Assembly: GCF_035621475.1 (NCBI RefSeq)
Contig: NZ_CP141799.1
Coordinates: forward strand, 3,212,501 to 3,276,500
Length of the DNA: 64,000 bases
Source: Pseudomonas paeninsulae
GTDB taxonomy: Bacteria > Pseudomonadota > Gammaproteobacteria > Pseudomonadales > Pseudomonadaceae
Direction of reading: 5' to 3'
Shown: positions 40,687 to 63,140 of the stretch, in pieces
Layout: the number at the start of each line of letters is the position of its first letter
Position numbering within the stretch: the stretch's first letter is position 1
Position numbers and translations under genes: made by a program
Notes under the pieces: generated by a model
The model's input: the letters and a program-made list of their open reading frames with translations, nothing else
The model's database searches: none
What the model was told of the DNA's origin: nothing

Positions 40687-41132
40687 CGGTGATCTCCTCA
40701 AGGCGCGCATCATAACGGAGTCGGGAACCCGGGGCGCACCTGACCTGTCCAGTTAAGCGAGCGCTTGATTTCGCCGGTTGCCGCTTTTACGCCATGCTCG
40801 CCGGACGCCAAAGCCTCACGACCAAGGCACCCGGCATATGCCTACAGCTGCATCCATGGGCTCACCTACGGACTTACGGCACACCCCACATCCTTGTAGG
40901 CGGCGCGCCCCGCGGCGATGCGGGTCGCCGGAGCGCTGAACACACAAGCATCGCCCCGGGTCGGGCCGCCTACTGGTTCTGACTGGATCTGGCGATGGGG
41001 GTAATGGCTGAGTGAGCAAATGCCACCCGGCCATAAGACCTATGACATGGCAAGCCTCGCCAAGCAGAGCTAGCTTGAAGACTCTGCAGCAAACAATCCG
41101 GTTTGCACCGTGCAAGCCACAGGAGACGCGCA
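40687..41132. other. Intergenic region with a REP-like hairpin
   Basis: About 445 bp between divergent rlmM and acnA. It contains arms GTAGGCGGC (40896-40904) and GCCGCCTAC (40965-40973) around a GC-rich core with GCGATGCGGGTCGCCGG, a REP-like block. The acnA ribosome-binding site AGGAGA is at 41121-41126. No coding frame with family features was seen. Confidence 0.55.
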
Positions 41133-43874
<2,742 letters not shown>

Positions 43875-43976: not shown

Positions 43977-45410
43977 TCATGGCGCTGAGTGGACGCTGCG
44001 TCCGTAAACATCCTCGAGCCGCTCGATATCGTCCTCACCCAGGTAGCTGCCGGATTGCACCTCAATGATTTCCAGGGCGATCTTTCCGGGATTCGCCAAC
44101 CGGTGTACCGAGCCAATGGGAATGTAGGTGGACTGGTTCTCCGTGAGCAGAAAGGTTTTCTCGCCACAGGTCACCATCGCCGTGCCGGAGACTACGACCC
44201 AGTGCTCCGCACGGTGGTGATGCATCTGTAAGGACAGCTGTGCCCCCGGTTTCACCGTGAGGTGCTTGACCTGGTGACGGCTGCCCGCATCGATCGAGTT
44301 GTATCCACCCCAGGGACGGTACACCTGGCAATGGCTGCGGGTTTCCTGGCGGCCAGCGGCGTCCAGGGCGTTTACCAGCTTCTTCACATCCTGCACGCAA
44401 TCCTTGCGGGCGATCATCACCGCGTCCCTGGTTTCCACCACGACCACATCGTCCATGCCGAGCAAGGTCACCAGTTTCGAGTTGCCGTGGACGTAGCAGT
44501 TATGGCTGTCCTGTACCAGCACATCGCCCTTGAGGGCGTTGCCATCCGTATCCTTGGCGACGACATCCCATAACGACGACCAACAGCCGACATCACGCCA
44601 ACCGGCGGAGAGCGGGACCACACAGGCCCGCGAAGTTCTCTCCATCACCGCATAGTCGATGGAGTTGTCCGGGCAACACTCAAACGTCTTGGCATCGATT
44701 GCCATCGCCCCATGGTCGACCTGACTACGCTCCAAGGCCAACACACAGGTATCGTAAATATCCGGTTCGTAGTTACGCAGCTCATGCAGATAACGGCTGG
44801 CGCGGAACAAAAACATGCCACTGTTCCAGTAATAGCTACCGGAGCGGACGAACTCGCTGGCGCGAGCAATATCCGGTTTCTCGATGAACTGCTCGACCCG
44901 GTACGCGCCCGGGATCAGCGCATCAGTATCCTCGCCGCGTGCGGCCTTGATATAACCGAACCCGGTTTCCGGCCGTTCGGCGGGTATGCCGAATAGCACC
45001 ATGTCGCCCTCTTCTGCTGCCGCACGGGCCACCTCCAGCGCCTGACGCAGAGCGGCTACATCGCTGATCAAGTGATCGGCCGGCAGCACCAGCAACAACT
45101 CATCGCGATTGTCGGCCAGCACCTTTAGCGCAGCCAGCGCCACAGCCGGCGCGGTATTACGACCAAACGGCTCCATCAATATGGCCTGTGCGCTCACATC
45201 GATGGCGCTGAGCTGTTCGTTGATGATGAAGCGGTGTTCCTGATTGCAGACAATAATCGGCCGCTCTACGCCCTCGAACCCCAGACGTTGCACCGTCTGT
45301 TGAAACAGCGTGTGTTCCCCGGCCAAAGCCAGGAACTGCTTGGGATAGAGCTTGCGGGACAGCGGCCAGAGCCGCGACCCGCTACCGCCAGACAAAATCA
45401 CCGGAATCAT
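43977..45410 (-). CDS. algA: Mannose-6-phosphate isomerase / mannose-1-phosphate guanylyltransferase
   Basis: 477 residues, bifunctional. The guanylyltransferase domain comes first (about 1-350): pyrophosphorylase loop GGSGSRLWPLSRKLYPKQFL, EPFGRNTAPAV and the sugar site QFIEKPD. The C-terminal cupin isomerase domain has LSLQMHHHRAEHWVVVSGTA with metal-binding His residues. Makes mannose-6-P from fructose-6-P and then GDP-mannose for AlgD. Last gene of the alginate operon, here directly after algL rather than algF. AGGAG lies upstream of ATG 45410. Confidence 0.95.
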   Translation of the reverse strand: MIPVILSGGSGSRLWPLSRKLYPKQFLALAGEHTLFQQTVQRLGFEGVERPIIVCNQEHRFIINEQLSAIDVSAQAILMEPFGRNTAPAVALAALKVLADNRDELLLVLPADHLISDVAALRQALEVARAAAEEGDMVLFGIPAERPETGFGYIKAARGEDTDALIPGAYRVEQFIEKPDIARASEFVRSGSYYWNSGMFLFRASRYLHELRNYEPDIYDTCVLALERSQVDHGAMAIDAKTFECCPDNSIDYAVMERTSRACVVPLSAGWRDVGCWSSLWDVVAKDTDGNALKGDVLVQDSHNCYVHGNSKLVTLLGMDDVVVVETRDAVMIARKDCVQDVKKLVNALDAAGRQETRSHCQVYRPWGGYNSIDAGSRHQVKHLTVKPGAQLSLQMHHHRAEHWVVVSGTAMVTCGEKTFLLTENQSTYIPIGSVHRLANPGKIALEIIEVQSGSYLGEDDIERLEDVYGRSVHSAP

Positions 45411-45452
45411 GATTGTCGCTCCTATGAGCGTTTCAACACTGCCAGATTGAAG

Positions 45453-45490
45453 GTTCAGCGCTGCAGACTAGGCTCCGACTTGCGCTGAAC
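45453..45490 (-). other. Hairpin in the algL-algA gap
   Basis: GTTCAGCGC (45453-45461) and GCGCTGAAC (45482-45490), a perfect 9-bp stem with a 20-nt loop, in the 186-bp space where algI, algJ and algF would normally be. No T-tract. It may be an RNA-processing element or a trace of the event that removed the genes. Confidence 0.55.
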
Positions 45491-45596
45491 ATTCCCGCTG
45501 GATGGGGCCGAGTAGTCCTCCTGACTGCATGGCCGGTTGCCGGGAATTACCCGGATAGCAAAGCGGCACCTCCCAGTGCCAATCAAGGAGCCCGGC

Positions 45597-46697
45597 TCAA
45601 TCAGCTGGGTTCCGCAGGTTCTGCTGACTGGCGAACAGCTGGGTGATATCACCGCCCAAGCGGTAGGTTGTCAGCGGCTCGAGCGAGCGTCGCCATTTAT
45701 CAGTACTGGCCGCGCAGCGATAGAGGGCACAGTAGGGCTCAAGCCAGGCGAACTTACCGTCTTCCTGCAGATCCTCCAGCTCCTGGGCGAAGCCAGTCTC
45801 GTCCTCAAACAGCTGAGGATCCTGCATGCCCTGCTCCACGCGCATGGCCAAGCGCTGAATGGCCTTAGCGTTCGCCTCGCGCAGATCGATGCCATTGACC
45901 TGGGCGAAGGCCATCAGCATCAACAACGGCCCCAGGCTGTAATTGTGATAAGCCAGCGCTCGGGTTTCCCGGCGCAGCTCATTAGGCAGGTAGCCCTGGG
46001 CATTCACCTGGGAAATGCCGATACGCAACTGGGCCACAGCCCAATCGAACAGGTCGCGGCGGTCGAGCACTACGGCAGTCGCCATCACCGCCCAGGCGGC
46101 CCAATACTGATGGTTGTTCAAACGCTCCAGCGGCTGCTCGCGCCAATCGCGCACCACCTGGTCGCCGAGACGGGCCAGCCACTCCTCGATAGGCCGGGTC
46201 TCAGCCTCGCGTCCACGCAGCGGTTGTGAGCGCGAGTACTTAAGGCGCAGATAGGCCGAGGCAATGCTGCCCAGCGCCCATTTACGCAGCGACTTGCCGC
46301 TGTGGCTGTACTGCTGGCTCAGCAACGCTTGGGCCTTGGCCCATTGCCCCAGCCACTCCAGGGCACAGTCGACATGCCCCTGGCGGCCGAGACGCAGATA
46401 AGCCGCGACCTGCTTGTTGACGGTTTTCTCCAGCACTTTGATTTCGTCCGCCTGCTTCTGGTAGCGCGCGTTCGTCTCTGGATTGAGCTGATCGCGCGCC
46501 GAACCAGAGCCCTCATACTTGCTCGGCACGTTGAGGTCGCCCACGTAGGGCCGGGCCACCGCCGGACATGTCTTCGCCTCACCCTTCTTCAGCGTCGCTT
46601 CCAGGTAGTACCCGGCCGGTGGCTGCAACTGTGCGGCCACTGCGGCAGTCGGCAACAGGGCCATGAGCAGCAGCACGTAGCACCCGCGACGCGGCAT
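45597..46697 (-). CDS. algL: Alginate lyase
   Basis: 366 residues; ATG 46697 overlaps the algX stop by one base (TGATG), with an in-frame GTG just before it as alternative. Signal peptide ends near AVAAQ. PL5-family elements: DLNVPSKYEGSGSARD with the charge-neutralising Lys, RLNNHQYWAAWA with catalytic Asn and His (about 195-196), and ALAYHNYSLGPL with the Tyr at about 250. Periplasmic enzyme that cleaves stray polymannuronate, needed to avoid toxic build-up during export. Confidence 0.94.
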   Translation of the reverse strand: MPRRGCYVLLLMALLPTAAVAAQLQPPAGYYLEATLKKGEAKTCPAVARPYVGDLNVPSKYEGSGSARDQLNPETNARYQKQADEIKVLEKTVNKQVAAYLRLGRQGHVDCALEWLGQWAKAQALLSQQYSHSGKSLRKWALGSIASAYLRLKYSRSQPLRGREAETRPIEEWLARLGDQVVRDWREQPLERLNNHQYWAAWAVMATAVVLDRRDLFDWAVAQLRIGISQVNAQGYLPNELRRETRALAYHNYSLGPLLMLMAFAQVNGIDLREANAKAIQRLAMRVEQGMQDPQLFEDETGFAQELEDLQEDGKFAWLEPYCALYRCAASTDKWRRSLEPLTTYRLGGDITQLFASQQNLRNPAD

Positions 46698-48088
46698 CAC
46701 TCGACTGATGCCTGTGCGGTGCGCAGGCCGGGACGGCCTTCGTCACTTTTCACCCGGCACAACGTGGTGTTCAAGCGGCCATGAGCGGACACGCCGCCCA
46801 GCGGCCGCACAGTGAGGGAGAGGAAGGTCAACTCATCCCAGTCGCCATCTTCACGCAGTTCCAGCAGAAAACGGCCCCGATCGCCAGGAGCACGCTTGAA
46901 CGTCAGGGTTTCCTGGCGGCCATTCATGAAGGTCAAGGTGGCGCTCAACTGTTGCACGGCCGGGTCGTCAAGTTGGAGATCAATGCGAAAATCGCTGCTG
47001 TGAATCGGCAGCACGCCACTGGTACCGTTGAATAGCACCTGATTAGCACCGGCTTGCAACGTGATGGAGCTTTGCAGCAACGCCCTATGCCCGCTACAGC
47101 CGTTACTCACGGCGGGAACAGCCTGACGATAGAAATTACGACGATTGAGACTGCTGGAGTCCCCCAGCTCCCAGATCAGCAGTTTCGGTGGCTGCTGTTG
47201 AAACGACTCGCTCTGCAGGTAGTGCAGCAAAGCACTTTCATGGCCACTGCCGGGTTGCGAGGCGTTGTGCACAGGGGTCCCCAGGTGCTGTTCGAGAAAG
47301 CCGGCGAAGTTGAGCGAATCCGCACTATTGCTGCTGCCGACCAGAACCACCTGCGCCGGCGCTGACTGGTTCGGCGAGGTGGGCGCGGTGATAAAGCGTT
47401 GCACGTACTGACGGGCGTACCCGGCGCCGCACAGTCGTTGGGCAACTTTCTGTAGCGAACCGCTACGCGCCATCAAGCCCGCCGGTCTGCTCTGGTATTG
47501 CCCCTCTGGGAGCTGGTCAAACAGCGGAATTTTCTTTGCTGTCTCCGCCACCAAGCGCGCGGTGCGCTCCGCCCCTTGCGGGGTCCAATGCTGGTCAGCC
47601 TTGAAAAAGAAGTCGGGACTATCTGCCGGGGGCTGTAGCAGGCTGACAAGGTCAGGCACCCAGATATCCAGATCACGCAAACGCGCCAGAGCGGCACGAT
47701 AGTTTGCCTGGGCCCTGGCCTGATCAAAGCCCGCGCGCTGGACCGGGGTCAGTTTATCGGCATGCAATAAACCACGGCTGGGCGGGTACACCAGCAGTAG
47801 CTCGACGCCGCTGTGCTTGAGTGCATTGCGCAGGCGTTTGAGTTGTTTGTAACTCTGTGGGTTGAGGCCGAACTCGCTGCGCAGGTCCTGGGTACTGCTG
47901 AACATCCAGCCATCCTGCGCCTCGAGCAGTCGACCATAACCGCTCAACCCCTCGGCCTGGTAGACGCGAGTATCGGCAGCCGCCGGGCACAGCTGGCAAC
48001 AGGCCTCGGCCTGGTAAGTCGGCGCAGCGTAGAGGTTGCTGGCGCCGGCCAACAGGAAGACGCCGAAAAGCATGCATGCCCGGTTCAT
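46697..48088 (-). CDS. algX: Alginate biosynthesis protein AlgX (SGNH-like acetyltransferase and carbohydrate-binding module)
   Basis: 463 residues from ATG 48088, which has AAGGAG upstream. Signal peptide to about residue 21. SGNH-like domain: the Asp-His pair is KADQHWTP (Asp165, His167) and the nucleophile region VVLVGSSNSADS (about 248-257), equal to the catalytic Asp/His/Ser of P. aeruginosa AlgX. A C-terminal carbohydrate-binding module follows (about 340-455). In known systems it acetylates mannuronate with acetyl groups delivered by AlgI, and it is a structural part of the secretion complex. The absence of algI here makes the enzymatic role doubtful. Confidence 0.93.
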   Translation of the reverse strand: MNRACMLFGVFLLAGASNLYAAPTYQAEACCQLCPAAADTRVYQAEGLSGYGRLLEAQDGWMFSSTQDLRSEFGLNPQSYKQLKRLRNALKHSGVELLLVYPPSRGLLHADKLTPVQRAGFDQARAQANYRAALARLRDLDIWVPDLVSLLQPPADSPDFFFKADQHWTPQGAERTARLVAETAKKIPLFDQLPEGQYQSRPAGLMARSGSLQKVAQRLCGAGYARQYVQRFITAPTSPNQSAPAQVVLVGSSNSADSLNFAGFLEQHLGTPVHNASQPGSGHESALLHYLQSESFQQQPPKLLIWELGDSSSLNRRNFYRQAVPAVSNGCSGHRALLQSSITLQAGANQVLFNGTSGVLPIHSSDFRIDLQLDDPAVQQLSATLTFMNGRQETLTFKRAPGDRGRFLLELREDGDWDELTFLSLTVRPLGGVSAHGRLNTTLCRVKSDEGRPGLRTAQASVE

Positions 48089-48092
48089 TTCA

Positions 48093-49622
48093 TCACTCCT
48101 TACTTGCCAAGCTGCCAACGGGCTCGATCAGCACCGCCTGTTGTTGGCGCAGCAGAATGTCCATTATTTCGCTCTGACGCTCGCCCAGCAGCCCCGAGAA
48201 GGTGATGCCTGAGGCTTTCTGCGGAGCGAGGATGGTCAGCTTGTAGAGTTCGAGCTTGCTCGGCGAATGCACGGAGACCGGACTTGAACCGTTGCCGACC
48301 ATTTGTCCGCCGACTATGCGCATCGACAGTCTGGCCTCGTAGGGGTCCTCCTCGAGATTGCGCTCGCTGCCACTCAAGTCCTTGATATGGCCATAGACAC
48401 CGGTCAGGTGGTTGGCCACCAGGATGTTCTCGTAGAGACTGACATCGAGGCTGTTACGCACTCGGATGCCGTGCCGACGGTTACTCATGCTACGGTTCTG
48501 CCACAGCAGGTTGTTCGAGCTTTCGTACAGGGTGATGCCGTCGGATTGGTTCTTGTAGGTCTCGTTGAAGGCGATCAGGTTGTTCGCGCTGCTACGGTCG
48601 AGGACGATGCCAGAGAGCTGGTTGTCGTAGGACTTGTTGCTGAAAATCCAGCTGTCATTGACCTCACGGGAAAGGATGATGCCGTGCTTCTTTCTGGTTC
48701 CGAACGCCTGGTTCTCGGCGATGATCAACCGCCGCGAGCGGTCATGCGGGTCGATGCCGTAGACGATGCTGTTTTCATAGGTGTTGCCGCGGATCACCAC
48801 GTCGTCGGCTTCATAGCAGTAGAAGCCGTACCACATGTCGATAAAGCGCGAGTTGAGTAACCAGCCGGTCGGCCGTGCGCGCTTCATCTTCGGCGCCATA
48901 CCCGGGCTGTACTGCGAGATGCTGAAGCCGTAAGCCTTACTCGCCTCGTAGCCGAAACTGCTGATGACGCTGTCGGTTACGTAAGTCTCGGTCCCGCCCC
49001 AGGCCAGGAAGTACGGGCGAAATTCCTTGACGTCGCGCCAGTAGGCCGGCGTGCCGTCCTTCTCGCGCCAAGCGGTGACCTTGGTGTCGGTGATGAACAC
49101 TCGACCATCATTGACCAGGAAAGCGCCCGCCTCCTGGGACAGGCGAAGTTCTTTGGTATCTCGGTCAATGTGCAGCGTGGCACCCGGGCGCACGATGATC
49201 GGCAGACGCGCCAGGTAAATACCCGGCGCGGTCTCGGCGAAAGCGGATGTCGGCAACTGCCGCGCCAGCGCCGCGCTATTCATGTAGCCCTGCTCGATGA
49301 AGATCGCCTGAGGCATGCGTTTTTGCCGCACCACCCACTCGCGCAAGCGATCCTTACCGCCGATGAACTCGTCCAATGAGTTCTCGTGCAACATCCCTTT
49401 GATTACCGCCCTGCCTGCAGGTTTTTTCTGGATCTTTGCCTGCACTGCAGTTGCGGTGTAGCCGGACAGATCGGGTAGAACCGGGGGCTCCAATTGGAGC
49501 GAGCTGCCCGATTCGGCACTGATCCTATAGTCTCCAGGTAGCGGCGCGAGGGTATCCGCCTGGGACAGGGCGCAGGCAAAAACGCCTGCCAGAGGCAACG
49601 CCAGCTTGATTAATGCGTGCAT
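48093..49622 (-). CDS. algG: Mannuronan C5-epimerase
   Basis: 509 residues, slightly shorter than P. aeruginosa AlgG. Signal peptide to about residue 22, then a right-handed parallel beta-helix with many Asn/Asp-rich turns (NNLIAFNETYKNQSDGITLY, LLWQNRSMSNRRHGIRV). The catalytic DPHD motif is at residues 291-294. Converts D-mannuronate to L-guluronate in the periplasm and guides the polymer to AlgE. AGGAGG precedes ATG 49622; the stop is four bases before algX. Confidence 0.95.
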   Translation of the reverse strand: MHALIKLALPLAGVFACALSQADTLAPLPGDYRISAESGSSLQLEPPVLPDLSGYTATAVQAKIQKKPAGRAVIKGMLHENSLDEFIGGKDRLREWVVRQKRMPQAIFIEQGYMNSAALARQLPTSAFAETAPGIYLARLPIIVRPGATLHIDRDTKELRLSQEAGAFLVNDGRVFITDTKVTAWREKDGTPAYWRDVKEFRPYFLAWGGTETYVTDSVISSFGYEASKAYGFSISQYSPGMAPKMKRARPTGWLLNSRFIDMWYGFYCYEADDVVIRGNTYENSIVYGIDPHDRSRRLIIAENQAFGTRKKHGIILSREVNDSWIFSNKSYDNQLSGIVLDRSSANNLIAFNETYKNQSDGITLYESSNNLLWQNRSMSNRRHGIRVRNSLDVSLYENILVANHLTGVYGHIKDLSGSERNLEEDPYEARLSMRIVGGQMVGNGSSPVSVHSPSKLELYKLTILAPQKASGITFSGLLGERQSEIMDILLRQQQAVLIEPVGSLASKE

Positions 49623-49646: not shown

Positions 49647-51134
49647 TCAGAAACGCCAGATAGCGTCTACAAAGACACGGTGCATATACGAATCAACATC
49701 GGAGCCGTAGGCATTGCCGGGTTTGAATACGCCGCCGCGTAAGCGCACCAGCGCCGAAGGCTCATCAATTGACTGGCTCATGGAGGCCGGAAGCAGGCCC
49801 TCTTTGAAGTACCGGGTAAGGATCAGATCGACTTCCTGACCCACGTCTTTTTCGCCATCTTTTAGCGAGCGGTTGATGCCGTTGTCATTGACCCGAGCGT
49901 TGACGCCGCTGTTACCGAGGGGCTGGTGGTCATCGACCCGCCAGAACTTGTGGTAAATCAGGCTGGCGTCGTAATCCTCACGCAGCTGCCAGGAGCCAAA
50001 CAGCGTCGCGACCTGGAGATTGCTCAGTTCGCTGCGAAAGGCCTCACCGAAACGATTTGCGCGTGAGCGAGTACCGGTGTAATTGGAGCGATTGCTCTCC
50101 AGGCCGGTTTGTTCATAGTTCTCCGAGCCGTCGTCACCACCGCCGCCACTGCCACGGGCATAGGCCGCGCCGACTTGCCAAGTGGGATCCAGTCGCAGAC
50201 GGATACCCAGGTCGGTGGCCCAAGCATTGACGTCTCCGCTTTGCTTACCGGTAGCGATTGTCTGGCCGCCGACAGTGCTGCTGTTCAGCGTGTCGCGGTC
50301 ACCGGTAAGCCAGGTGGCGCTGGCCCAGTAGTTGAGCGGGTTCTGGTTGCGGTAGTTGTAAGCATCGCTGTTGGCTTCCAAGCCCAGCCAGGTAAGGTTG
50401 CCGGTACTGGTCTTGTCGAGTTCGTCGACGCGCTCACCCGGGCGGGGCAAGTTGCCGTCATCGCGGCTGTGGTGCGCGCGGATGCCGACCCATTGGCCCG
50501 GTTGCCACTGGGTCGAGATATCGCCATACAGATGCAGGCGATCTTCATCCTCTGGATCCAGCTCGTCGAGGTCTGTGCGGTAGTCGCTGAAGCGCTCGGC
50601 CACACCCACGTTGGAACGCAGCAAGGTAGTGTCGAAGGTCCAGTTCAACGCCTCGATGTTGGTGTCACGCCACAGGCCGTCTTCGGTGCGCAGGCGCTGG
50701 CGTCCTAAGCGCAACTGTTCACCTGGGTAGGCGGTTAAACCGGAATAGCCGATCCAGAATTCATGCAAGGCCAGGAAGCTCTTGTCCGGCTGGCGACCGT
50801 TGTTGCCACTGCTGCCGGACTCGCTGTCGAGATCGGTGCGTTGCAAGGTATCGGTTTCGATGATGTCGGTCGCGGTCACCGCCCGGCCCATGGCGAAGGC
50901 GCTCCAGTCACCGCGCTGGCCATAGAACCAAGGCCGTACGTCTAGACCTATGCCTTGTACATCGCCCTCCCGACGCGTACCCAGGTCGCGATCATCCTCG
51001 GACTGTCCGGTAAGCTTGATGTCCAGGCCGAAGCTCTTGTCCGGACCGAGCGCCGCCAGCAGCGTTTCACTCGAGAGCAACGAAACACTCAGGAGCACCC
51101 CTGCACCAAAACCGCGAGTAATTTGCGTCTTCAT
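49647..51134 (-). CDS. algE: Alginate outer-membrane export porin
   Basis: 495 residues. Signal peptide (about 1-28), then alternating beta strands of an outer-membrane barrel, ending in the C-terminal aromatic signature [30 protein letters not shown] and [17 protein letters not shown] match AlgE-family strands and loops. Forms the anion-selective pore for alginate release. Its ATG overlaps the algK stop (ATGA, 51134-51131). Confidence 0.94.
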
Positions 51135-52510
51135 AGCACGTCCATTCCTTTTTCCAGCGATTGAAAAGCACTGAGTCCCGCAGGATTGATTTGCCGTGTC
51201 TGCTGCTCTTCTTCGAGTATTTGCCTGGCTTTTTGGCGTTCGGCCGGAAGCATGCTCTGCTCCAAATTGCTGAGCAGTTCGCTCGCCTCAGGCACGGCCC
51301 GACTGAGCGCCATTTGTGCGAAGACATAAGCGTTGACACGGTTCACCTTGACCCCTCGGGACTCACTGAACAGCTGCGCCAAAGCATAGTCGGCGCGGCG
51401 ATGCCCGGCACGCGCGGCCAGCAGGAAATGATCGACAGCTTTTTGCGGATACACCTCGCCGAAGTAACCGCGACGGTAGATCTGCCCCAGGTAGAAATGC
51501 GCCGTCGGTTGCTCATCGGCCGCACGCAGCAGGTGCCGCTCTGCCAGCTGCGGGCTCTGCTCAAGTCCCCGGCCACCGTAGTACAAACGCCCGGTGAGCA
51601 GCTCGGCACGACTGTCACCGGCCTCACGGCCACGCTGCAGATAGCCAAGCATCTGTGTGGAATCGCCCAGGACCGGGTAATCGAATAGCAACTTGGCGAG
51701 CGAGGCCCAGGCTAGTGGGTAAGCAGGGGCGATTTCCCGCAGCAGCGCGTAGGCATTACTCAGATCCACCGGCGCGGGAATGCCCGGATCGACCAGCGTC
51801 AACGCCACGGACTCGACGCGACTCGGGGTCACCCAACGAATGGCGTAAGCCGTACGCAATTGCTCAAGCAAGGCAGCTTGCGCTTGCGGCTGATCGCGCA
51901 GGCGATTGACCGTGGCCAGCTCGTTGTAGCAGACACCCTGCTGGCTCAGGAGCAACCGACACGTCTGCTCGATCTCGGTGAGGTGAGTGATATAACTACC
52001 GTCACTGCGGTAGATAAGGATCTGCGCCAGCTCGGCCTCCACTATGCCCTGCCCGCGCCAGACGTTGACCTGCTGCTGCGGATCGACTGAAGGTGACAGC
52101 TGTGGGTAACTCACATAGAGCAACGTCAGCGGCACCACGGCGCTGTACTCACCCTGCTCGATGGCCTGGCTCAGCAGCTGTTCGGCCTCTTTCAGCTGGC
52201 TATCGCTCGCGCCATCCTGGCGCGAGAGCAACCGACCGAGCCTGGACTGCGCCTTCGGCGAATGCAGCGCGGCCTGGCGGTAAAGACGTTCAGCCTGCTC
52301 GATCTGCCCTGGGTCACGGCTGCCGAACTGCATATCACCGAGGGCGATCTGCGCATCCACATAGCCCATCTGTGCCAGTTGTTCATACTGCTGGCGGGCA
52401 CTCGCGCTATCGCCACGCTGCTGGGCCTCCTTGGCCAGCTGCTGGTCTGGCAGGCCGGCGCAACCCTGCAGCGTGGCCAGCAGTGCAAAGTAGAGCAAAC
52501 CGCGCTTCAT
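51131..52510 (-). CDS. algK: Outer-membrane lipoprotein AlgK
   Basis: 459 residues. Lipobox LATLQGC at about residue 17, followed by a superhelix of Sel1/TPR-like repeats (for example [57 protein letters not shown]). Scaffold that helps place AlgE and links it to AlgX in the periplasm. Coupled to alg44 upstream (ATGA overlap at 52510-52507) and to algE downstream by a second ATGA overlap. Confidence 0.94.
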
Positions 52511-53682
52511 TTGCCTGCAGCCATGATTTTTTCAATCAACAAGTTGCCCGACAGGCCGTCAATGGTCACCTCAACTGGACGCCCGGCGACCTCAGCACTC
52601 AGGGGCTCATCGGTGATGATCGAGACACGGATATCCGACGCCAGACTGCCCTGTTGTAGAGATACAGTGCTGATCTTGCCGTTGCGCGCAGCGCTCTCGC
52701 CGGATACTTGCACGAGCACGCGAATGCCCGGTTGCACCTTGCTAAAGGCTTTGTAAGGGAAACGCGCATCAATGGTCGCCTCCCCTTTCAGCGGAACCAA
52801 CTCAAATACCGGCACCCCTTTGCTGGCCGACTGGCCATCACCGACATACTGCGCAACCACTCGGCAATCACAAGGGCTGGTCAGGGTGCCCTGCAAGGTC
52901 TTGCTGAACAGGCGTTCGATGTTTTCCGGGGTCATCTGCTCGGCTGGCAGGCTGTTCTTCAGCACATCCAACATGGTCGCGGAGAACGTCGCCAGTGGCG
53001 CGCCCTTGGCCACCTCGCTGCCGACCTTGACCAGACCGACCTGCAACACGCCTTCACGGGGCATGCTGACCTGCTGACTCGGCAGGCTGACCATGGCCGA
53101 ATCGGCATGGGTGACGTAATACAGGTTATAGAGTTGGTTGAGGATGTAAGCACAAGCCCCGACACCGATCAGAAAGATCAGCACACTGAAGGTGAGCGCT
53201 CGTAGCCGTGAGAAAAAGCCCATGGCTCCCCCACCCTTACCCTTGCGCGCCGTAGCAAAATTGTCGCGTTGCAGGGTACCGAGCATGTCACCCATGGTGA
53301 TCATCTCGCCGCTGGTGTAAGAGGTGATCAGGTAGCGCAGAGCCGCGATCTCACGCGGGCGCAACTGATGAAATTCACAGCCGACACGCTGGCCTTCGGC
53401 GGAAATCGAACGAACCTGGAACTCCACATCGATGGTCATGCTCAGCCCGTCGATGTGAAACACCAGCGCACCTTTGTGATGGCCGCCCAGCTTCATCGGC
53501 AAGCTGCTTTGAATGAAGCTGAAGCCACCGGCGGACAAGTCCAACAGCTCGCTCTCAAACATGTCCCGGTCAGAGCCCAGGAAACGAATCCTCGCCGGCA
53601 TTTTCAGGCGCGCATACTGACGCTGTGCTTCCGATTCATGGACGACATTGGTATTGCTGGCTGCAACGGTCGCTACGCTCAT
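52507..53682 (-). CDS. alg44: Alginate co-polymerase Alg44, c-di-GMP receptor
   Basis: 391 residues from ATG 53682, preceded by AGGGA; upstream in-frame codons overlap the alg8 end and lack support. The N-terminal PilZ domain keeps both c-di-GMP signatures: RxxxR at residues 21-25 (RQYAR) and DLSAGGF at 48-54. One membrane helix (LTFSVLIFLIGVGACAYIL) and a periplasmic membrane-fusion-like part follow. Activates the Alg8 synthase on binding c-di-GMP. Lies 70 bp after alg8. Confidence 0.95.
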   Translation of the reverse strand: MSVATVAASNTNVVHESEAQRQYARLKMPARIRFLGSDRDMFESELLDLSAGGFSFIQSSLPMKLGGHHKGALVFHIDGLSMTIDVEFQVRSISAEGQRVGCEFHQLRPREIAALRYLITSYTSGEMITMGDMLGTLQRDNFATARKGKGGGAMGFFSRLRALTFSVLIFLIGVGACAYILNQLYNLYYVTHADSAMVSLPSQQVSMPREGVLQVGLVKVGSEVAKGAPLATFSATMLDVLKNSLPAEQMTPENIERLFSKTLQGTLTSPCDCRVVAQYVGDGQSASKGVPVFELVPLKGEATIDARFPYKAFSKVQPGIRVLVQVSGESAARNGKISTVSLQQGSLASDIRVSIITDEPLSAEVAGRPVEVTIDGLSGNLLIEKIMAAGK

Positions 53683-53752
53683 AAAAATCCCTCCCGAACT
53701 CCAATGAAAACCCAGCGGAACTGGTCTCGATGCCTCTCCCGTTCCCAATCCA

Positions 53753-55234
53753 TCAAACGACACTCATCAATACGGCCAGGAACACGCTAACCGCGGAAAA
53801 CGTCATGGCCCGTGACGACCAGCTGTTGAACCAACGCTGATAGCGCTGCAAGCCTCGATCCAGCTTGGTGTCCTGGCGTGTCCAGGACTGCCTATCGAGG
53901 CGGAAGAAGACGTACACCTTCACCATCGCGCCGACGATCTGGTTGTAATAAAGGATCAAGGGGAACGCCGGTCCTACCCGGTGCCCGGACGCCAGCAACA
54001 GCAGCGTCAGCAGCAGCCGGGTGAGCCCGATCCACAGCAGGTAGATCAGCAGAAACACGATGTTGTATTTGATGCTGGCCAGGATCGCCACCACGGGCCC
54101 GAGCAGGCTGGTCCACATCGATACGCGTTGATCGAACAGCACCACACAGGTAAACCAGCCCAGGCGCCCAGGGCCAAGGTGCAAGGCGCGGGAGTTCTGC
54201 CGCAGGTTATTGCCGTACCAGCGGAACATCAGCTTGCGACTGGCCTTGAGGAAGCTTTTCTCCGGTGGGTGCTCCACGGTGTGGATCGCCGCGTCCGGCA
54301 CGTAGAAGGTGTCGTAACCGAGGCGCATCAGGCTGTACCAACTGGACTTGTCGTCGCCGGTGAGAAACTTGAAACGCCCCAGCCGCCAGTGATCCAGCGC
54401 GTCACTTTCAACATCGGCAATAAACCCCGGGTTGGTCACCACCCGCGCTCGAAATACCGACATGCGCCCGGTCAGCGTCAACACCCGCTTGGACAACGCC
54501 ATCGAACACATACTGATGTGGCGCTGGGCAAAGCGCAGCTTGTGCCACTCGCTCATGATGTAACTGCCGCGCACCTCGCAGAACTCGTTAGTGGTCAGCC
54601 CACCGACGCTGGGGAACAGCTTGAAATATGGCGCCGTGGCCTTGACTACCCCAGGCGTCAGCACGGTATCGCCGTCAACCACCGCCACCACCGCATCGTC
54701 ATCCGGCAGATGCCGGGAAATAGCGCGAAAACCGTAGGCCAGTCCATCACGCTTGCCCGTTCCGGCGATGCGTACGAAATCGAGCTTTACCCGCTCGGGC
54801 GGGTTGAGTTTGCTCCACAGGCTTTTGATCAGCAGCTCATCGGCCATTTCCACCAAGGAGCAAACCACCGTGGTTGGATAGCCGCAACCGATGGCCTCTT
54901 CGAGCACCGAGCGGTAGACCTGTGCGGTAGTCAGGGCGTCGATGCGGAAGCTGGTCACCAACAGAAAGACATGGGAGGGTTGCGCCGCTTCACCCAACTT
55001 GCGCGCTTGCCTACGGTAGTGAGGGAATACCAGGTATAGAAAGATCAGCCCGCGCACATAATGGATAGCGCCCATGGAGTAGCGCCAAATCCCAACCGCA
55101 CCGAGCAGCAGGATGAAGTCTTTCGACTCCGAGTCGAACACCGTTTGTGGCAGCGCCAGCGCCAGCAGCATCAGCGCCAAGCAGTAGAAAAGCCAGCCTG
55201 AGCATTCGCGCAGAAATCGTCCGAACCCATGCAT
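53753..55234 (-). CDS. alg8: Alginate polymerase Alg8, GT2 glycosyltransferase
   Basis: 493 residues from ATG 55234, chosen for the GGAGGGA upstream and the match to the known start ([11 protein letters not shown]). Membrane helices at both ends and a GT2 domain between: [10 protein letters not shown] gives the DxD metal site (about 187 and 189), and [10 protein letters not shown] the catalytic Asp-Asp-Lys (about 294-296), one residue off the P. aeruginosa numbering. Polymerises GDP-mannuronate and exports the chain across the inner membrane with Alg44. 74 bp after algD. Confidence 0.96.
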
Positions 55235-55308
55235 ACGCTTGTGTCCCTCCACGTCCATTCAACCGCTGAGGGCGAAGGGTGATTTCACCTATGCCCAGCG
55301 CGCAACGC

Positions 55309-56619
55309 TTACCAGCAGATGCCTTCCATCGACTCGTTGCTGGTCTGCGGCATAAAACCCACCAAATCGACGATTTTCTTCCCTGCTGGCAGGTTGCCGA
55401 CAACGCTGGCGAACTGCGGGTCGTTGTTGCCAATCACGATGACATCTGCCTGCTCCAGCACATCCGCGAGGTCGGCGCATAACAGCGATGAGACATGCGG
55501 AATCTTCGCTTCGATGTACTCCTTGTTGGCGCCATGCACCCGGGCGTACTCGACGTTGCTGTCGTAGATGCGCAGGTCATAACCCTTGCCGATAAGCATC
55601 TCGGCCAGCTCCACCAGCGGGCTTTCGCGCAGGTCATCGGTGCCGGACTTGAAGGAGAGGCCAAGCAGGCCAATGCGGCGCTTGTCATAGCTGGCGATGA
55701 TGTCGAAGGCTCTTTCCACCTGCATCCGATTGCTGCGCATGATCGAGTGCAACAGTGGATGTTCGATGTCGAGCTGACTGGCGCGATAGGTCAGCGCGCG
55801 CACATCCTTCGGCAAGCAGGAACCGCCAAAGGCAAAGCCAGGGCGCATGTAGTACTTGGAGAGGTTGAGCTTGTGGTCCTGGCAAACTACCGCCATCACC
55901 TCTCGACCATCGACGCCCACGCCCTTGGCGATGTTACCGATCTCATTGGCAAAGGTGACCTTGGTGGCATGCCAGGCATTGCAGGTGTACTTGATCATCT
56001 CCGCCACTTCGATGCTACGGCGGATGATTGGCGCGTCCAGCTCGCTATAAATAGCCTCCAGCAGATCGCCGGATGCCTTATCCAGCTCGCCGATCACCGT
56101 CATCGCCGGGAAGTCGTAATCCTGGATGGCCGTGCTTTCACGGAGGAACTCCGGATTTACCGCAACGCCGAAGTCGACCCCAGCCTGCATCCCCGAATGC
56201 TGTTCCAGCATCGGAATGACCACACCTGTCACCGTACCCGGCAGTACCGTACTGCGTACCACGATGGTGTGGCGGCCTGCCTTTTCCGGTAACACGCGAG
56301 CGATCTGCTCACACACCTGGGCAATATAGGACACGTCCAGATCACCGTTCTTCTTGCTCGGCGTTGGTGCCGCGATAAACGACACGTCCGTACTCATCAC
56401 GGCATCACGCACATCGAGGGTGCCACGCAGATTGCCACTCCTGACACCCTTCAGTAGAAGCGCTTCCAGGCCTGGCTCGACAATCGGCGACTGGCCATGG
56501 TTGATCAGTTCTATTTTAAGCGGCGTGACATCTACCCCAACGATCTGATGACCGCGTGCAGACAGGCATCCCGCACAGACGGCACCCACATACCCAAGGC
56601 CAAAAATACTGATGCGCAT
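55309..56619 (-). CDS. algD: GDP-mannose 6-dehydrogenase
   Basis: 436 residues from ATG 56619 with AAGGAG upstream, exactly the P. aeruginosa length. Rossmann NAD motif GLGYVGAVCAGCLSARGH; the catalytic Cys268 in FAFGGSCLPKDVRAL; Lys in MIKYTCNAWHATKVTFANE. Oxidises GDP-mannose to GDP-mannuronate, the committed step. First gene of the operon, so its upstream region controls the whole set. Confidence 0.97.
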   Translation of the reverse strand: MRISIFGLGYVGAVCAGCLSARGHQIVGVDVTPLKIELINHGQSPIVEPGLEALLLKGVRSGNLRGTLDVRDAVMSTDVSFIAAPTPSKKNGDLDVSYIAQVCEQIARVLPEKAGRHTIVVRSTVLPGTVTGVVIPMLEQHSGMQAGVDFGVAVNPEFLRESTAIQDYDFPAMTVIGELDKASGDLLEAIYSELDAPIIRRSIEVAEMIKYTCNAWHATKVTFANEIGNIAKGVGVDGREVMAVVCQDHKLNLSKYYMRPGFAFGGSCLPKDVRALTYRASQLDIEHPLLHSIMRSNRMQVERAFDIIASYDKRRIGLLGLSFKSGTDDLRESPLVELAEMLIGKGYDLRIYDSNVEYARVHGANKEYIEAKIPHVSSLLCADLADVLEQADVIVIGNNDPQFASVVGNLPAGKKIVDLVGFMPQTSNESMEGICW

Positions 56620-57576
56620 CGCTAATCTCCTTTCGCAGATTAAACAAACCGCACAGCACGCGACGATGAACACTCACCTCGAACGAAATGCAAAAGCACG
56701 GCAGATAAATTTCCCAATGAACTAATAAAGCATGAGCCTTATTACTTCCTGAACGCACAACACCTCTAACATGGCTGAACAAAAGGCAAACTTCGCACCC
56801 ACCGTCATACTCAACAGACACCTATTAATAAGACAAGCACCCGTAAAGACAAAACAATTGGCGTCAAATAAAAAACTTGCCAAAAAAAACAATACACATG
56901 GCCTTAGCCAGCGACTTCAATGCAGCAAGAAGATGCACAAAAATCCAAAGCGGAAAAAAGGGAACACTCCGTGCCTTGGCCCTGCTAGCGCTTTGAAATT
57001 CTGGACCATGATTTTAATCTGCGCAAATACTTATAGTGCCAAAGATAAGGCGACAAATAACTAACGCAAAAAATCTCTACAAATATCAGAAGCGCCTCGC
57101 CAGCCTTGAGGCCAATGTAACGGTGGCAACTCCGCCACGAAGGCAATGCAATAGCGCAACTTTCAACCTGGGGCATTTACCCAGGCGTTAACCAATCTTC
57201 AGGCACTCTACGGTAAATACACCCCTGTTTGCCGTTTAGCCTAATCGAAGCGGTTTCGATAGCGCCGCCCAATTGACGTGTAGCTCTCCGCGTAGGGTGC
57301 GCTCAATTGATCTGCACTCAATGGCCTGACCAGGGCACCGCTCCGGCTCAAGTCGGGGCTGCTTTGCTCTGCTCACAAGCGCTGCACTCCCCCTACAAAC
57401 CGAGAATCCCTCGGGGTATCGACCCTGCAGCGAGGGCGCGATGAGCCGCGTGGTTTGCACGGTTTAGCAACGGCAATTCAACCCGTCTCAGGGTGCCCAG
57501 CCAGGGCAGCAGCAAGGGTTAGCTGAGTGTTCGCCAACGCCTTGAAACTGGTTACACTGCGCCGCAAACAAACGGC
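56620..57576. other. AT-rich upstream region of algD
   Basis: Nearly 1 kb without a convincing gene. From about 56640 to 57100 it is clearly richer in A and T than the surroundings, with A-runs such as at 56880-56888. It should hold the algD promoter and regulator sites. I find no exact GAACTT AlgU box on the minus strand. One-mismatch boxes exist (GAATTT near 57002, GAAGTT near 56795) but without a convincing -10. A 97-codon open frame at 56771-57064 looks like chance. Confidence 0.6.
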
Positions 57577-57630: not shown

Positions 57631-59196
57631 ATGAAAAATAATCAGCCCATCACCCAACGCGAACGCACCTTTTCGGCCCAGCAACGCTTGATTTCCACCA
57701 CCGATGCCAAAGGCCAGATCACCTATTGCAACGAAGCGTTCGTCGAAATCAGTGGCTTCAGCCACGGCGAGTTGATGGGTGCACCACACAACCTTGTGCG
57801 TCACCCGGATGTGCCGTCGGCCGTGTTCGCCCACATGTGGAACACCCTGAAGCAGGGTCGCCCCTGGATGGGCATCGTCAAGAACCGCAGCAAGAATGGT
57901 GATCACTACTGGGTCAATGCCTACGTCACGCCGGTACTGGAAAAAAACCAGGTGGTTGGCTACGAGTCGGTGCGGATCAAACCGACCGCCGAACAAGTGC
58001 ACCGCGCCGAAGCCCTGTACAAGCGCATCAACAGCGGCAAGTCCGCCGTGCCCAGCCGTGACCAATGGTTACCGACCCTGCAAAACTGGCTGCCCTTTAT
58101 CCTGATCAGCCAGATCGGCTTTTTGATCGGTACCTGGCTCGACTCCAGCTGGGGCTTTGCCGTCGCCGCCCTGCTCTCGATACCGCTTGGGCTGATCGGC
58201 CTCAACTGGCAACAACGCGGGCTGAAGCGCCTGTTGCAACTGGCCGACCAAACCACTTCCGACCCGCTGATCGCACAGATGTACACCGACAGCCGCGGCA
58301 CCCAGGGCCGCCTGGAGATGTCCCTGCTCGGTCAGGAAGCACGCCTGAAAACCTGCCTGACGCGCCTGCAGGACAGCGCCGAGAACCTGGCCAAACAGGC
58401 CAAACAGGCCGATACCCTGGCCCACAGCAGCTCGGCCGGGCTGGATCGCCAACGCCAGGAAACCGAACAGGTCGCCACTGCGGTCAACCAAATGGCTGCC
58501 ACCACCCTGGAAGTCGCCAGTAACGTCGCCCGCACCGCCATCGCCACCCAGGAAGCCAATCGCCTGACCAGCGAAGGCCGCGCCATTACCGCGGAAACCC
58601 GCGCGGCCATTCAGCGCCTCTCGCAGTCGGTCGGTGATACCGGCGAAACCGTCACCCGCCTGGCCAAGGACAGCAACGAAATCGGCGGCGTGGTCGATGT
58701 GATCAAAGGCATCGCCGACCAGACCAACCTGCTCGCCCTCAACGCCGCCATCGAAGCCGCCCGCGCCGGTGAAATGGGTCGAGGCTTTGCCGTGGTAGCC
58801 GACGAAGTCCGCTCGCTGGCACAACGCACCACCGAATCCACCGGGCAAATACACCAGCTGATCGCCAAGCTGCAGCGCACCGCCGAAGAAGCGGTGATGA
58901 CCATGGAAATCGGCCGCAAGCAAGCCGACGACGGCGTCGAACGTGTGCAACAGGCCGACCAGGCCCTGGCCGGGATCAGCGACGCGGTCGCCAATATCGC
59001 CGACATGGCCAACCAGATCGCCGCCGCAGCCGAAGAACAAAGCTCGGTCGCCGACGAAATCAACCGCAACATCACCAACATCGCCCAACTGTCCGACCAA
59101 ACCGCCAGCGAAGCGCAAAGCTCCGCCGTGCTCAGCCAAGCACTCACCGCCACCGCGCAAGGGCAGTACTCGCTGGTCGAACGCTTCAACCGCTAA
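57631..59196 (+). CDS. aer: Aerotaxis receptor Aer, PAS-type chemoreceptor
   Basis: 521 residues. The N-terminal PAS domain (about 8-125) has the Aer motifs [19 protein letters not shown] and [17 protein letters not shown], expected to bind FAD. A short hydrophobic hairpin (about 150-190) anchors it to the membrane with no periplasmic domain; then HAMP and the MCP signalling region ([37 protein letters not shown]). Senses redox or oxygen status and signals to CheA/CheW. In PAO1 aer adjoins acnA; here the alginate operon lies between them. Confidence 0.94.
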
Positions 59197-59564: not shown

Positions 59565-60687
59565 GGAAACTCTGAAAAAAGACTTCCCGAATCTAGTGGA
59601 ATACGACCATCCGTGTTTTCGAGTAAACCAATGAAGCAGATCTCCTTCGCCGATGCTGAGTACGCTGGTAAGCGTAAGCAAAGCCGTCGTGAACGCTATC
59701 TGATCGAGATGGATCAGGTGGTGCCGTGGGAAGGCTTGATTACGTTGATTGAAGCGCATGAGACGAAGGGTGAAGGTGGACGGCCGCCCTACCCGCTGAT
59801 GGCGATCTTGCGTGTGCGCCTGATGCAGAACGGGTTCGGCTACAGCGATTCGGCGATGGAAGAGTCGCTCTACGAGGCTACGATTTTGCGCCACTTTGCC
59901 GGGCTGAGCCTGAAGCGCATCCCGGATGAAACCACCATCCTCAACTTCCGCCGTCTACTGGAGAAACACGACCTTGCCGCCGGGATTCTGAGCGTCATTA
60001 ATGATGACCTCGGCGACCGCGGCTTACTGCTGCACCACGGCACCATCGTCGATGCCTCGATCATCCATGCACCCAGTTCGACCAAGAATAAGGAAGGCAA
60101 GCGCGACTCTGAGATGCATCAGACCAAGAAAGGCAACCACTACTATTTCGGCATGAAAGCGCACATTGGTATGGATGCCGATTCGAGCCTGGAGCACAGC
60201 GTGCTGGGTACCGCCGCCAATGTGGCTGTGGTGACTCAGGTCGACCGATTACTGCATGGTGAGGAAACTCACACGGCCGGTGATGCCGGTTACACCAGTG
60301 TCCACAAGCGGCCCGAACATGAAGGCCGGATAATGATTGGGTCGATTTCCGCCCGTCCCAACTCGTACAAGAAGCACGGCAAGAAAAGCCTGATTGGCCG
60401 AGTTAAACGCAAGATCGAATACACCAAGCGGCGCTTTCGCGGCTTGGTGAAAAATACCGCCCAACAGGTCACGCTGTTTGCGCTATCGAACCTGTGGATG
60501 GCGCGCAAACAGTTAATGATTGCAGGAGAGGTGCGCCCGTAAGGCGGAGAATTAACCCTGCGAAGCGCCTCTCAAGGGTAAAACTATGTATTTGCAGGTG
60601 GAATATGATCTGATTTTCGATTGAGGCGATATCTTTTCGAGTCGTTGAGTAAACCAATCCGGAAATTGAGGCTACTTCAGGCCTTCC
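59565..60687 (+). mobile_element. Complete IS5-family insertion sequence
   Basis: 1123 bp. Left end GGAAACTCTGAAAAAA (from 59565) and right end, read inward from 60687, GGAAGGCCTGAAGTAG: imperfect terminal repeats sharing GGAA and CTGAA. Both outer flanks are TTAG (59561-59564 and 60688-60691), a 4-bp target duplication of the YTAR type known for the IS5 group. One transposase gene inside, intact. Confidence 0.85.
59631..60542 (+). CDS. IS5-family transposase
   Basis: 303 residues from ATG 59631 (KQISFADAEYAGKRKQSRRE). DUF772-type N-terminal domain (RPPYPLMAILRVRLMQNGFG) and a DDE catalytic domain: first Asp in IVDASIIHAPS, second in GDAGYTSVHKR, Glu in RKIEYTKRRF. Seems full length and without frameshift, so probably active. 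It lies inside matched terminal repeats. Confidence 0.95.
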   Translation: MKQISFADAEYAGKRKQSRRERYLIEMDQVVPWEGLITLIEAHETKGEGGRPPYPLMAILRVRLMQNGFGYSDSAMEESLYEATILRHFAGLSLKRIPDETTILNFRRLLEKHDLAAGILSVINDDLGDRGLLLHHGTIVDASIIHAPSSTKNKEGKRDSEMHQTKKGNHYYFGMKAHIGMDADSSLEHSVLGTAANVAVVTQVDRLLHGEETHTAGDAGYTSVHKRPEHEGRIMIGSISARPNSYKKHGKKSLIGRVKRKIEYTKRRFRGLVKNTAQQVTLFALSNLWMARKQLMIAGEVRP

Positions 60688-61046
60688 TTAGAGCCATAGG
60701 CAAATCATCGTTCTTCTTTGGCCTAACAAGGCGGGCTTTATTTTATTAATTGTGTTTAACGCTATATACAGTGCATCTATTACGAAGCAGGTTCTGCAAT
60801 CTGCCCTGTATTCTTGAGCACTCGAAAATACTGAAAAATAGCACTTACTTAAGATCACCCTGCCGCTGGTGACATTGTGTCGCATTCAACTTTTGCAACC
60901 GCAGGGTTATTTGAATTCGTTTTTATGGCAATGTGCCGATGAACGGTAAATTTAAATATTGATCGCCACTTCTATTATTTGCTCATTATATTTTTTAAGC
61001 CTAAGCTGCAATGTCAATTATGACATCTGCATTTATAGGCCATAAT
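60543..61046. other. IS right end and AT-rich spacer
   Basis: To 60687 this is the 3' non-coding part of the insertion sequence. The remaining 355 bp are AT-rich and hold no recognised gene; they must contain the promoter of the autotransporter gene, but I see no strong box. Confidence 0.5.
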
Positions 61047-63140
61047 ATGAAAATCAGCTTAATTTCTCTAGCGGTGGCAGCTGCCATTGTGGCTTGGGCA
61101 CCAATTAGTTTGGCTCGCCAGACTGTCGCGCCTCTAGGCGTAGTCGGAGCGGAAGGTGAGCTGAATGGTGTAGATACAACGGGTGGTGCCACATTGACCA
61201 TTACCGACGGCCAGAATATCAATACTAATAACGATCTTGGCGGTGCTTTTACCACTGATGCCCACCAAACGGGTGACCTCCTGTTCCTTGGCGACTCGAC
61301 CGTAACCGGCTCTACTGGTCAACCGGGGGTGCTGTTCCTCAATATCAGTGCCGGCGCTACTGGTAAAGAGGTAACCTTCAATGGCGATGTTCATGCAACT
61401 ACAACCCAGATTAGTGAGACCGGGACCATAAACTTCAATGGTGACGTTATCTCAGCCCCTGTGTTTGTCGGTGATGGTTTCCTTAATCTCGGTGCCGGCC
61501 ACTTGCTGACTGGTGCCATTACGACCAATACCGCAAATACCGGTACCTTGACGCTGAATAGCGGCAGTAATGTAAACGGCGCCATTGGTGGTGCAAGTGG
61601 GCTGAAGCAAATCATTGTATCGGGCGGTAATGCGTCCATTACCGGTGCGGTGCAAGCTCAAGGCTTCAGCCTCGGCGCGAACACCTTGAACATTACCGGG
61701 GCCTTGACCACTAACGCCAACGGCACGATTGCGACCACGCTTGCCGGTAATACCGTGTACGGTAATATCCAGCCGTCCGGCTCCTCGAATATTAATGCCG
61801 CCGGCATTACGGTGATCCCAACCGTATCTGGAGTATTGACCCCCGGCACGACGTTCAGGATTGTTGGCGGTCTCTCCGGCACCAACGGGGCGAACGTGAC
61901 TGTCCTCAACACCAACCCGCTGTACACCTTTTCCAGCGTGCCTACGACCACTGGCGACGTACTCATAACGGTTGAGTCGGTCCGCTTGGGCTCGCCTGCT
62001 GCCGACACAACAGCAGGGGCATTGCTGGGTGCGCCGGCTCCAGCAGGTTCCGCTTTGCTTGTCACTCAGGCCGCAGTCCTTGCTCTTCCCAATGCACCCG
62101 CCGTCAAGAATGCCCTGGCTCAGCTGGCCCCCAGCAGCACTAATCTGGCAGCACCTTGGGTTGCAGGGCAGGCGACGCGTCTTATGGAAGACATGTTGCT
62201 GAGTCGGGTGGACGAGATCCAGGACATTTGTTGTGACGCCAACTGTGAGCCCAATAAGCCCCAAGAAGTGCGTAAGTGTGAAGGTGACGAGCAACAGAAC
62301 AACTCGTGGGTTAAGAGTTTTGGTAGTTTAGGCAATCAAAATGAGGTGAATGATAGTAACGGCTACGACACTAAGACCTATGGCCTGGTGCTGGGCTATG
62401 ACCGGCCGGTGAGCGCCGACACCCGCATTGGTGTAAGCGCTGGTTATGCAAATAGCACAATTGACGGGAACGGTTCCTCTAGTGAGACAACAATAGATTC
62501 TTACCAACTGACGGGTTATCTCAACTACACGCCAGGCCCTTGGTATGTACAGGGTGCTTTGACAGCCGGGATAGACCAATATGAAGGGAAACGCCAAATC
62601 ATATTCCCAGGCGTGAATCGCGTCGCGAAATCTGACTACGATGGCCAGCAGTACACCGCGCTCGTCTCGGCAGGCAAACATTTTTACTTTGACCACGCGG
62701 TCACTGTTACACCGTTCGCGTCATTGCAGACATCGCTTATCAAAGTCGACAGTTATACCGAGCGCGGTGCTGGTGACGTGAATCATCGTGTGGATGACCA
62801 AGATTACAACCTTACTCAATCAGGCTTGGGCGTGAAGATCGAACGCATCATTCAATCCGGTGCTCGCACCTATTCCCCTGAGGCTCATGTCAAGTGGTTG
62901 CATGATTTCAGCGATACAACCACGGAGCAGAGCGCAGTGTTCACGGGTGGTGGCGCAGTGTTTAACGTGGAAGGGATAGAGCAGGATCGGGATCTGTACA
63001 ATGTCGGCGCGGGTATTACATTCCTGTCCTGCAATTGCGATAACAACTCTTGGACAGTCAAAGGGCAATACGACTACAAGTGGAATGATAGTGAATACTC
63101 GTCAAATCAATTGTCACTCATAGCGAGTCTCAAATACTGA
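61047..63140 (+). CDS. Autotransporter (type Va) with cysteine-bearing linker
   Basis: 697 residues from ATG 61047, chosen because a signal peptide (KISLISLAVAAAIVAWAPISLA) begins there; ATG 61011 would precede it by 12 residues. The passenger (about 25-350) is Gly/Thr/Asn-rich with short repeating strands (beta-helix type, e.g. TLTLNSGSNVNGAIGG). A linker helix (about 355-395) leads to a C-terminal barrel domain (about 430-697) ending in SLIASLKY. Six cysteines: 395, 396, 400 and 411 in the linker and 662 and 664 in the barrel, with none in the passenger, unusual for this class. No protease or adhesin motif recognised. Lower GC than the core genes, suggesting acquisition. Confidence 0.85.
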   Translation: MKISLISLAVAAAIVAWAPISLARQTVAPLGVVGAEGELNGVDTTGGATLTITDGQNINTNNDLGGAFTTDAHQTGDLLFLGDSTVTGSTGQPGVLFLNISAGATGKEVTFNGDVHATTTQISETGTINFNGDVISAPVFVGDGFLNLGAGHLLTGAITTNTANTGTLTLNSGSNVNGAIGGASGLKQIIVSGGNASITGAVQAQGFSLGANTLNITGALTTNANGTIATTLAGNTVYGNIQPSGSSNINAAGITVIPTVSGVLTPGTTFRIVGGLSGTNGANVTVLNTNPLYTFSSVPTTTGDVLITVESVRLGSPAADTTAGALLGAPAPAGSALLVTQAAVLALPNAPAVKNALAQLAPSSTNLAAPWVAGQATRLMEDMLLSRVDEIQDICCDANCEPNKPQEVRKCEGDEQQNNSWVKSFGSLGNQNEVNDSNGYDTKTYGLVLGYDRPVSADTRIGVSAGYANSTIDGNGSSSETTIDSYQLTGYLNYTPGPWYVQGALTAGIDQYEGKRQIIFPGVNRVAKSDYDGQQYTALVSAGKHFYFDHAVTVTPFASLQTSLIKVDSYTERGAGDVNHRVDDQDYNLTQSGLGVKIERIIQSGARTYSPEAHVKWLHDFSDTTTEQSAVFTGGGAVFNVEGIEQDRDLYNVGAGITFLSCNCDNNSWTVKGQYDYKWNDSEYSSNQLSLIASLKY

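Follow-up and report, generated by a model that had tools for sequence, protein, structure and literature searches.

Alginate is acetylated by AlgX, which is believed to have a second role in the export machinery; without AlgX no alginate is made, and unacetylated alginate has other gelling and enzyme-susceptibility properties. According to the available passages of two reports, residues D174, H176 and S269 of Pseudomonas aeruginosa AlgX are required for O-acetylation (PMC4148444, PMC9487903), and the substitutions Y275A and Y328A lower it (PMC9487903). Further alginate-type loci have been described in the genus: the S5 Fig legend of a study on P. resinovorans 136 records a partial duplication of the alginate operon with the acetylation machinery lost (PMC7112194), the available text on P. 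alcaliphila 34 mentions two alginate clusters without giving detail (PMC3587930), and P. alkylphenolia is credited with the epm cluster (Lee et al. 2014, cited in PMC5890197). The partial duplication of P. resinovorans 136 is very likely the same operon as the one described here.

The window, by which we mean the whole stretch of 64,000 nucleotides analysed (Pseudomonas paeninsulae, contig NZ_CP141799.1, positions 3,212,501 to 3,276,500), contains an alginate operon in the order algD-alg8-alg44-algK-algE-algG-algX-algL-algA, with every gene on the minus strand. This order and the gap of exactly 186 bp between algL and algA (45411-45596) agree with the initial annotation. The operon is a second, divergent alginate operon (alg2) and not the sole one of the organism, whose 5.35-Mb genome carries a complete canonical operon (alg1) approximately 2 Mb from the window. 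Protein identity between the two ranges from 42% (AlgX) to 79% (Alg8). The features of alg2 and its neighbours are as follows:

41103..43874, plus strand: acnA, left neighbour of alg2
43977..45410, minus strand: algA2, mannose-1-phosphate guanylyltransferase/mannose-6-phosphate isomerase, 70% identity to alg1
45411..45596, no strand: algL-algA gap, the site of algI/J/F in alg1; remnant not found
45597..46700, minus strand: algL2, alginate lyase, 51% to alg1, NNHxYW and RALAYHNY retained
46697..48118, minus strand: algX2, SGNH acetyltransferase-like protein with CBM, 42% to alg1 AlgX
48093..49622, minus strand: algG2, C5-epimerase, 62% to alg1, DPHDR retained
49647..51134, minus strand: algE2, alginate export porin, 68% to alg1
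51131..52510, minus strand: algK2, TPR lipoprotein, 51% to alg1, NCBIfam AlgK 567 bits (cut-off 700)
52507..53763, minus strand: alg44-2, PilZ and HlyD-like co-polymerase, 52% to alg1, RxxxR and DxSxxG retained
53753..55258, minus strand: alg8-2, glycosyltransferase-2 polymerase, 79% to alg1, DGD and GDD motifs retained
55309..56673, minus strand: algD2, nucleotide-sugar dehydrogenase, 74% to alg1 AlgD, GGSCLPKD retained
57631..59196, plus strand: PAS and MCP chemotaxis gene, right neighbour of alg2

Family models supported AlgE (alginate export), Alg44 (PilZ), AlgX, AlgL and AlgA, and the window AlgX, AlgL and AlgG matched solved structures bearing the same names; for AlgD the family model reached the nucleotide-sugar dehydrogenase subfamily only, and for AlgK the best family match was AlgK, yet below the NCBIfam cut-off. 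The operon holds the precursor genes for GDP-mannuronate (AlgD, AlgA), the synthase (Alg8/Alg44, with a PilZ domain and the motifs DGD, GDD, RxxxR and DxSxxG, which we take to be features of a c-di-GMP (PilZ)-type synthase) and the periplasmic and outer-membrane parts AlgK, AlgE, AlgG and AlgL; the acetylation module AlgI/AlgJ/AlgF is absent from it. That no frame in the gap resembles these three proteins had been noted from the sequence, and both protein and nucleotide comparisons bore this out. When AlgI and AlgF of the same genome were compared with the whole window (E≤10), nothing better than E 0.10 was obtained, and AlgJ gave a match to its homologue AlgX (E 2e-19), the remainder being at E 0.10 or worse; comparison of the gap with the algL-algA stretch of alg1 yielded no convincing similarity (E 0.11 at best by tblastx, E 1.4 by blastn). 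A collapsed assembly was ruled out as the source of the junction, because 11 further genomes have the same junction (119-208 bp when measured from tblastn end to tblastn end, which gives 189 bp for the window).

In alg1 of the window genome, algI, algJ and algF are located between algL and algA. The sole MBOAT/AlgI match of the genome (C1:1208293-1208952) and its one AlgF match lie within alg1, as does AlgJ (C1:1206-1209 kb). Intact algI/J/F elsewhere in the genome, named in the initial annotation as a refutation of its reading, are thus present in alg1, and the organism as a whole is therefore very likely able to make acetylated alginate. Consequently, the unacetylated alginate that had been proposed probably does not apply to the whole organism; for alg2 by itself the proposal gained support from the I/J/F-free loci and the loss of the AlgX catalytic triad documented below, though in the window itself AlgX keeps the triad and could be supplied by AlgI/J/F of alg1.

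With the window AlgX as query, AlgX at 49% identity or more was found in at least 8 of the 298 genomes of a genus sample; the next best matches listed were at 44-45%, and those fetched were alg1 operons. A family sample gave a match in at least 6 of 398 genomes, two of them common to the genus sample, and an order sample gave any AlgX-type match in 16 of 244 genomes, the best listed outside the family being at 39%. Among the 320 other genomes of a class sample none had an AlgX match (the window genome alone, 1/321). The best four to six candidates per genome were scored in these searches, and the alg2 counts are lower bounds. An origin of alg2 in another order or class was considered and rejected, no closer relative having been found in the order and class samples. 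A scan of named genomes added Pseudomonas sp. CC6-YY-74 (95%) and P. taeanensis MS-3 (80%), and among the protein matches of AlgX2 are Metapseudomonas resinovorans and a number of Pseudomonas strains.

Comparison of the locus across relatives, as the initial annotation had suggested, covered 12 alg2 loci (8 from the 298-genome genus sample and 4 more from the family sample) in two genera, and all 12 share the order D-8-44-K-E-G-X-L-A without I/J/F. All 12 genomes also have algI/J/F in alg1, with family matches in the eight tested; alg1 was complete in 11, and of the twelfth (G211) just the A-F-J-I end is visible, where the contig stops. In CC6-YY-74 (L035/L107), algK2 is split over two frames; algE1 (L108) too is split over two frames, which may indicate a sequencing error, the other possibility being genuine breaks. 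Two genomes, G204 (L083, L084) and G975 (L113, L114), carry two complete operons each, both with algI/J/F, which is another, different kind of duplication.

The alg2 operon lies between acnA and the PAS-MCP gene (aer-like, and presumably aer itself) in 7 of the 12 genomes, which belong to two genera. Where same-genus relatives have no alg2, acnA adjoins the PAS-MCP gene in 9 of 12 (186-1201 bp by match ends); the corresponding distance in the window is 13.8 kb. In the remaining five genomes with alg2, the operon was flanked by neither of these genes, and the neighbours at this second site, obtained as ORF lists for G046 only, gave no functional hint. All five second-site genomes have one further AlgF match, which is weak (E 3e-14 to 3e-17), and no second MBOAT match (G046 C1:5795 kb, G058 C4:114 kb, G178 C11:574 kb, G211 C26:12 kb and G262 C1:2861 kb). 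Just past the PAS-MCP gene at the insertion site, the window contains an IS5-family transposase (59613-60542), followed by a 709-amino-acid ORF with an autotransporter beta-domain (61011-63140).

In concatenated trees alg2 formed a single clade lying outside the alg1 of all Pseudomonadaceae sampled, and single-gene trees gave one alg2 clade in 7 of 9 cases, algD and algE being the exceptions. An AlgX tree with additional database rows (P0069 and P0070 excluded; P0014 dropped as a copy of L038) agrees with this placement. Tree tests, which used 25 of the 48 operons with algD omitted and have a single long outgroup as their weakness, rejected a recent duplication of the window genome's own alg1 (p-AU 0.001), a grouping of alg2 with the alg1 of its own lineage (p-AU 5e-07) and a placement of the genus g3 alg1 outside (p-AU 0.0009). 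I/J/F are present in the outgroup operon, where they lie between G and X, which makes it probable that the ancestor possessed them and that alg2 lost them. In P. taeanensis, alg1 (L044) groups apart from the alg1 of the window genome, though acnA and alg2 are close, and alg1 may have been exchanged in this species; a second AlgI and AlgF were also seen there at C1:1164-1167 kb.

The divergence of alg2 is unevenly spread over its proteins. Of the columns that do not vary across 34 alg1 operons and 2 outgroup operons (L040, nearly identical to L039, omitted; the value of 170/253 for algD of g3 stems from a cut gene, L080), the window AlgX breaks 20 of 83 (24%), and the remaining eight window proteins break 2-9% apiece; the share broken in any alg2 row was 39% for AlgX, 26% for AlgK and 6-15% for the others. 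AlgX in five I/J/F-bearing alg1 subclades, of lesser size and depth than alg2, had 0-5% of the invariant columns broken. AlgX is highly variable in alg1 as well, and 20 of 92 AlgE invariant columns are broken in the window-like alg1 subclade; AlgX is therefore not the sole protein able to shift. Intactness of the remaining genes and their catalytic residues, claimed at the outset, was upheld: all nine window genes are open, and the motifs of AlgG, AlgL, Alg8, Alg44 and AlgD are retained in 11 of 11 alg2 rows. Furthermore, comparison of five genome pairs, including one from a single species, gave a dN/dS of 0.05-0.43 for the alg2 genes and of 0.14-0.33 for AlgX2 (above alg1 AlgX in three of the four pairs with both computed), and on these values the operon, AlgX2 included, is under selection.

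The Asp175/His177/Ser263 triad is retained in the window AlgX2, which carries the changes Y275 to L, Y328 to S and W400 to T (P. aeruginosa AlgX numbering). Outside alg2, Asp-His-Ser was present in 77 of 77 rows and 72 of 72 clusters at 97% identity, 36 of these rows coming from operons confirmed to have I/J/F; inside alg2, it was intact in 4 of 32 clusters (the window, CC6-YY-74, P. taeanensis and M. resinovorans) and broken in 28 (DNS 14, DHG 6, DYG 3, DNG 2, and DYR, DHN and GNG 1 each). Loss of the triad is confined to the alg2 clade in this sample. The changes vary, with His replaced by Asn or Tyr, Ser by Gly, Asn or Arg, or several residues together, and P0028 (GNG) is the only cluster with all three changed. 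Eleven clusters have a known operon context (4 intact, 7 broken); the other 21, P0028 included, are database proteins assigned by the AlgX tree alone, in which P0028 falls within alg2 and P0027, with an intact triad, is basal to alg1. On the tree, at least eight triad losses are required if there was no regain; Fitch parsimony permits a regain of His, so that the direction is unfixed. Among the 37 alg2 rows used for residue counts (one of 38 dropped as identical), W400 is replaced by T in all 37, although every one of the 77 rows outside has W, and 35 have lost Y275, the window among them; Y328 is invariant in alg1 (34/34) and present in 16 of 43 other AlgX. We assume that W400 lies in the sugar-binding part of AlgX, and the CBM family match in the window AlgX2 is in line with this.

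Taken together, we favour, with a probability of about 0.6, the reading that alg2 is an ancient, maintained operon for an unacetylated, AlgG-epimerised alginate, with AlgX2 kept as a scaffold. The operon, which we infer to be expressed, would supply GDP-mannuronate and polymerise it with a c-di-GMP-type PilZ co-polymerase; the polymer would then be epimerised by AlgG2, stray chains would be cleared by the lyase AlgL2, and the remainder would be exported. With no acetyl-donor module in alg2, the product would most likely be unacetylated. AlgX2 may persist as a structural component of the export complex, with selection on its acetyltransferase site relaxed or absent across most of the clade, and a cell with both operons could produce two alginates of different chemistry. 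A more specific version, in which loss of the acetyl donors freed AlgX from catalysis and left a scaffold pseudoenzyme whose triad was lost repeatedly and independently, with two alginates per cell, stands in our estimate at even odds. As for regulation, an exact GAACTT-N16/17-TCnnA, which we take to be the sigma-22 (AlgU) consensus, was found upstream of algD in 8 of 20 alg1 loci and in none of the 12 alg2 loci, nor at the window genome's own alg1; a looser score exceeded shuffled sequence in 6 of 20 and 0 of 12, respectively (20 of 34 alg1 loci tested, four with shortened upstream sequence).

Because the triad of the window AlgX2 is intact, acetylation in trans via the alg1 AlgI/J/F is possible in the window species. 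Extended to the whole clade, this would mean that alg1 AlgI/J/F feed AlgX2 and that alg2 is a dosage or differently regulated copy; the presence of algI/J/F at alg1 in every alg2 genome fits such an arrangement, but the loss of an intact triad from 28 of 32 AlgX2 clusters, as against 0 of 72 outside, together with the altered Y275, Y328 and W400 of the window protein, makes it rather unlikely. The uniform replacement of W400, in the C-terminal domain, could instead point to another uronic-acid polymer, or to an AlgX2 that takes another donor or acceptor; AlgG2, AlgL2, Alg8-2 and AlgD2, however, retain the alg1 motifs, and we regard this as improbable. Least probable of all is that alg2 is a decaying relic, its missing I/J/F and AlgX changes marking early pseudogenisation: its rarity in the genus sample and the split algK2 of CC6-YY-74 would fit, but the split algE1 of that strain may mean sequencing error, and open genes, low dN/dS, retained catalytic motifs and a gene order common to two genera argue against it.

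The alg2 clade, in which AlgX persists but has often lost its active site, provides a clean way to separate the catalytic from the export role and supplies candidate scaffolds for an unacetylated alginate of bacterial origin; the presence of an alginate operon is not enough to tell which alginate a genome encodes. Compared with the canonical Pseudomonas algD-algA operon, alg2 has the nine orthologous genes in the same order at 42-79% identity, but differs in being without algI/J/F, in forming a sister clade to all sampled alg1 and in its altered AlgX site. From what is available on it, the epm cluster of P. alkylphenolia resembles alg2 in being an additional, alginate-like exopolysaccharide cluster. 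A cluster of G113 (L076), possibly of the epm type, is far more divergent, has another gene order and carries algI/J/F, unlike alg2; the window operon is thus not a divergent cluster with algI/J/F homologues of this kind. In the literature searched, which covered few subscription papers, we found no account of an alg2 clade or of AlgX decay. The report on P. resinovorans 136 concerns one genome, and the clade, the AlgX active site and the insertion site are absent from its available passages (PMC7112194). An I/J/F-free second operon was therefore already known from P. resinovorans, and what is new here is the decay of the AlgX triad within an alg2 clade.
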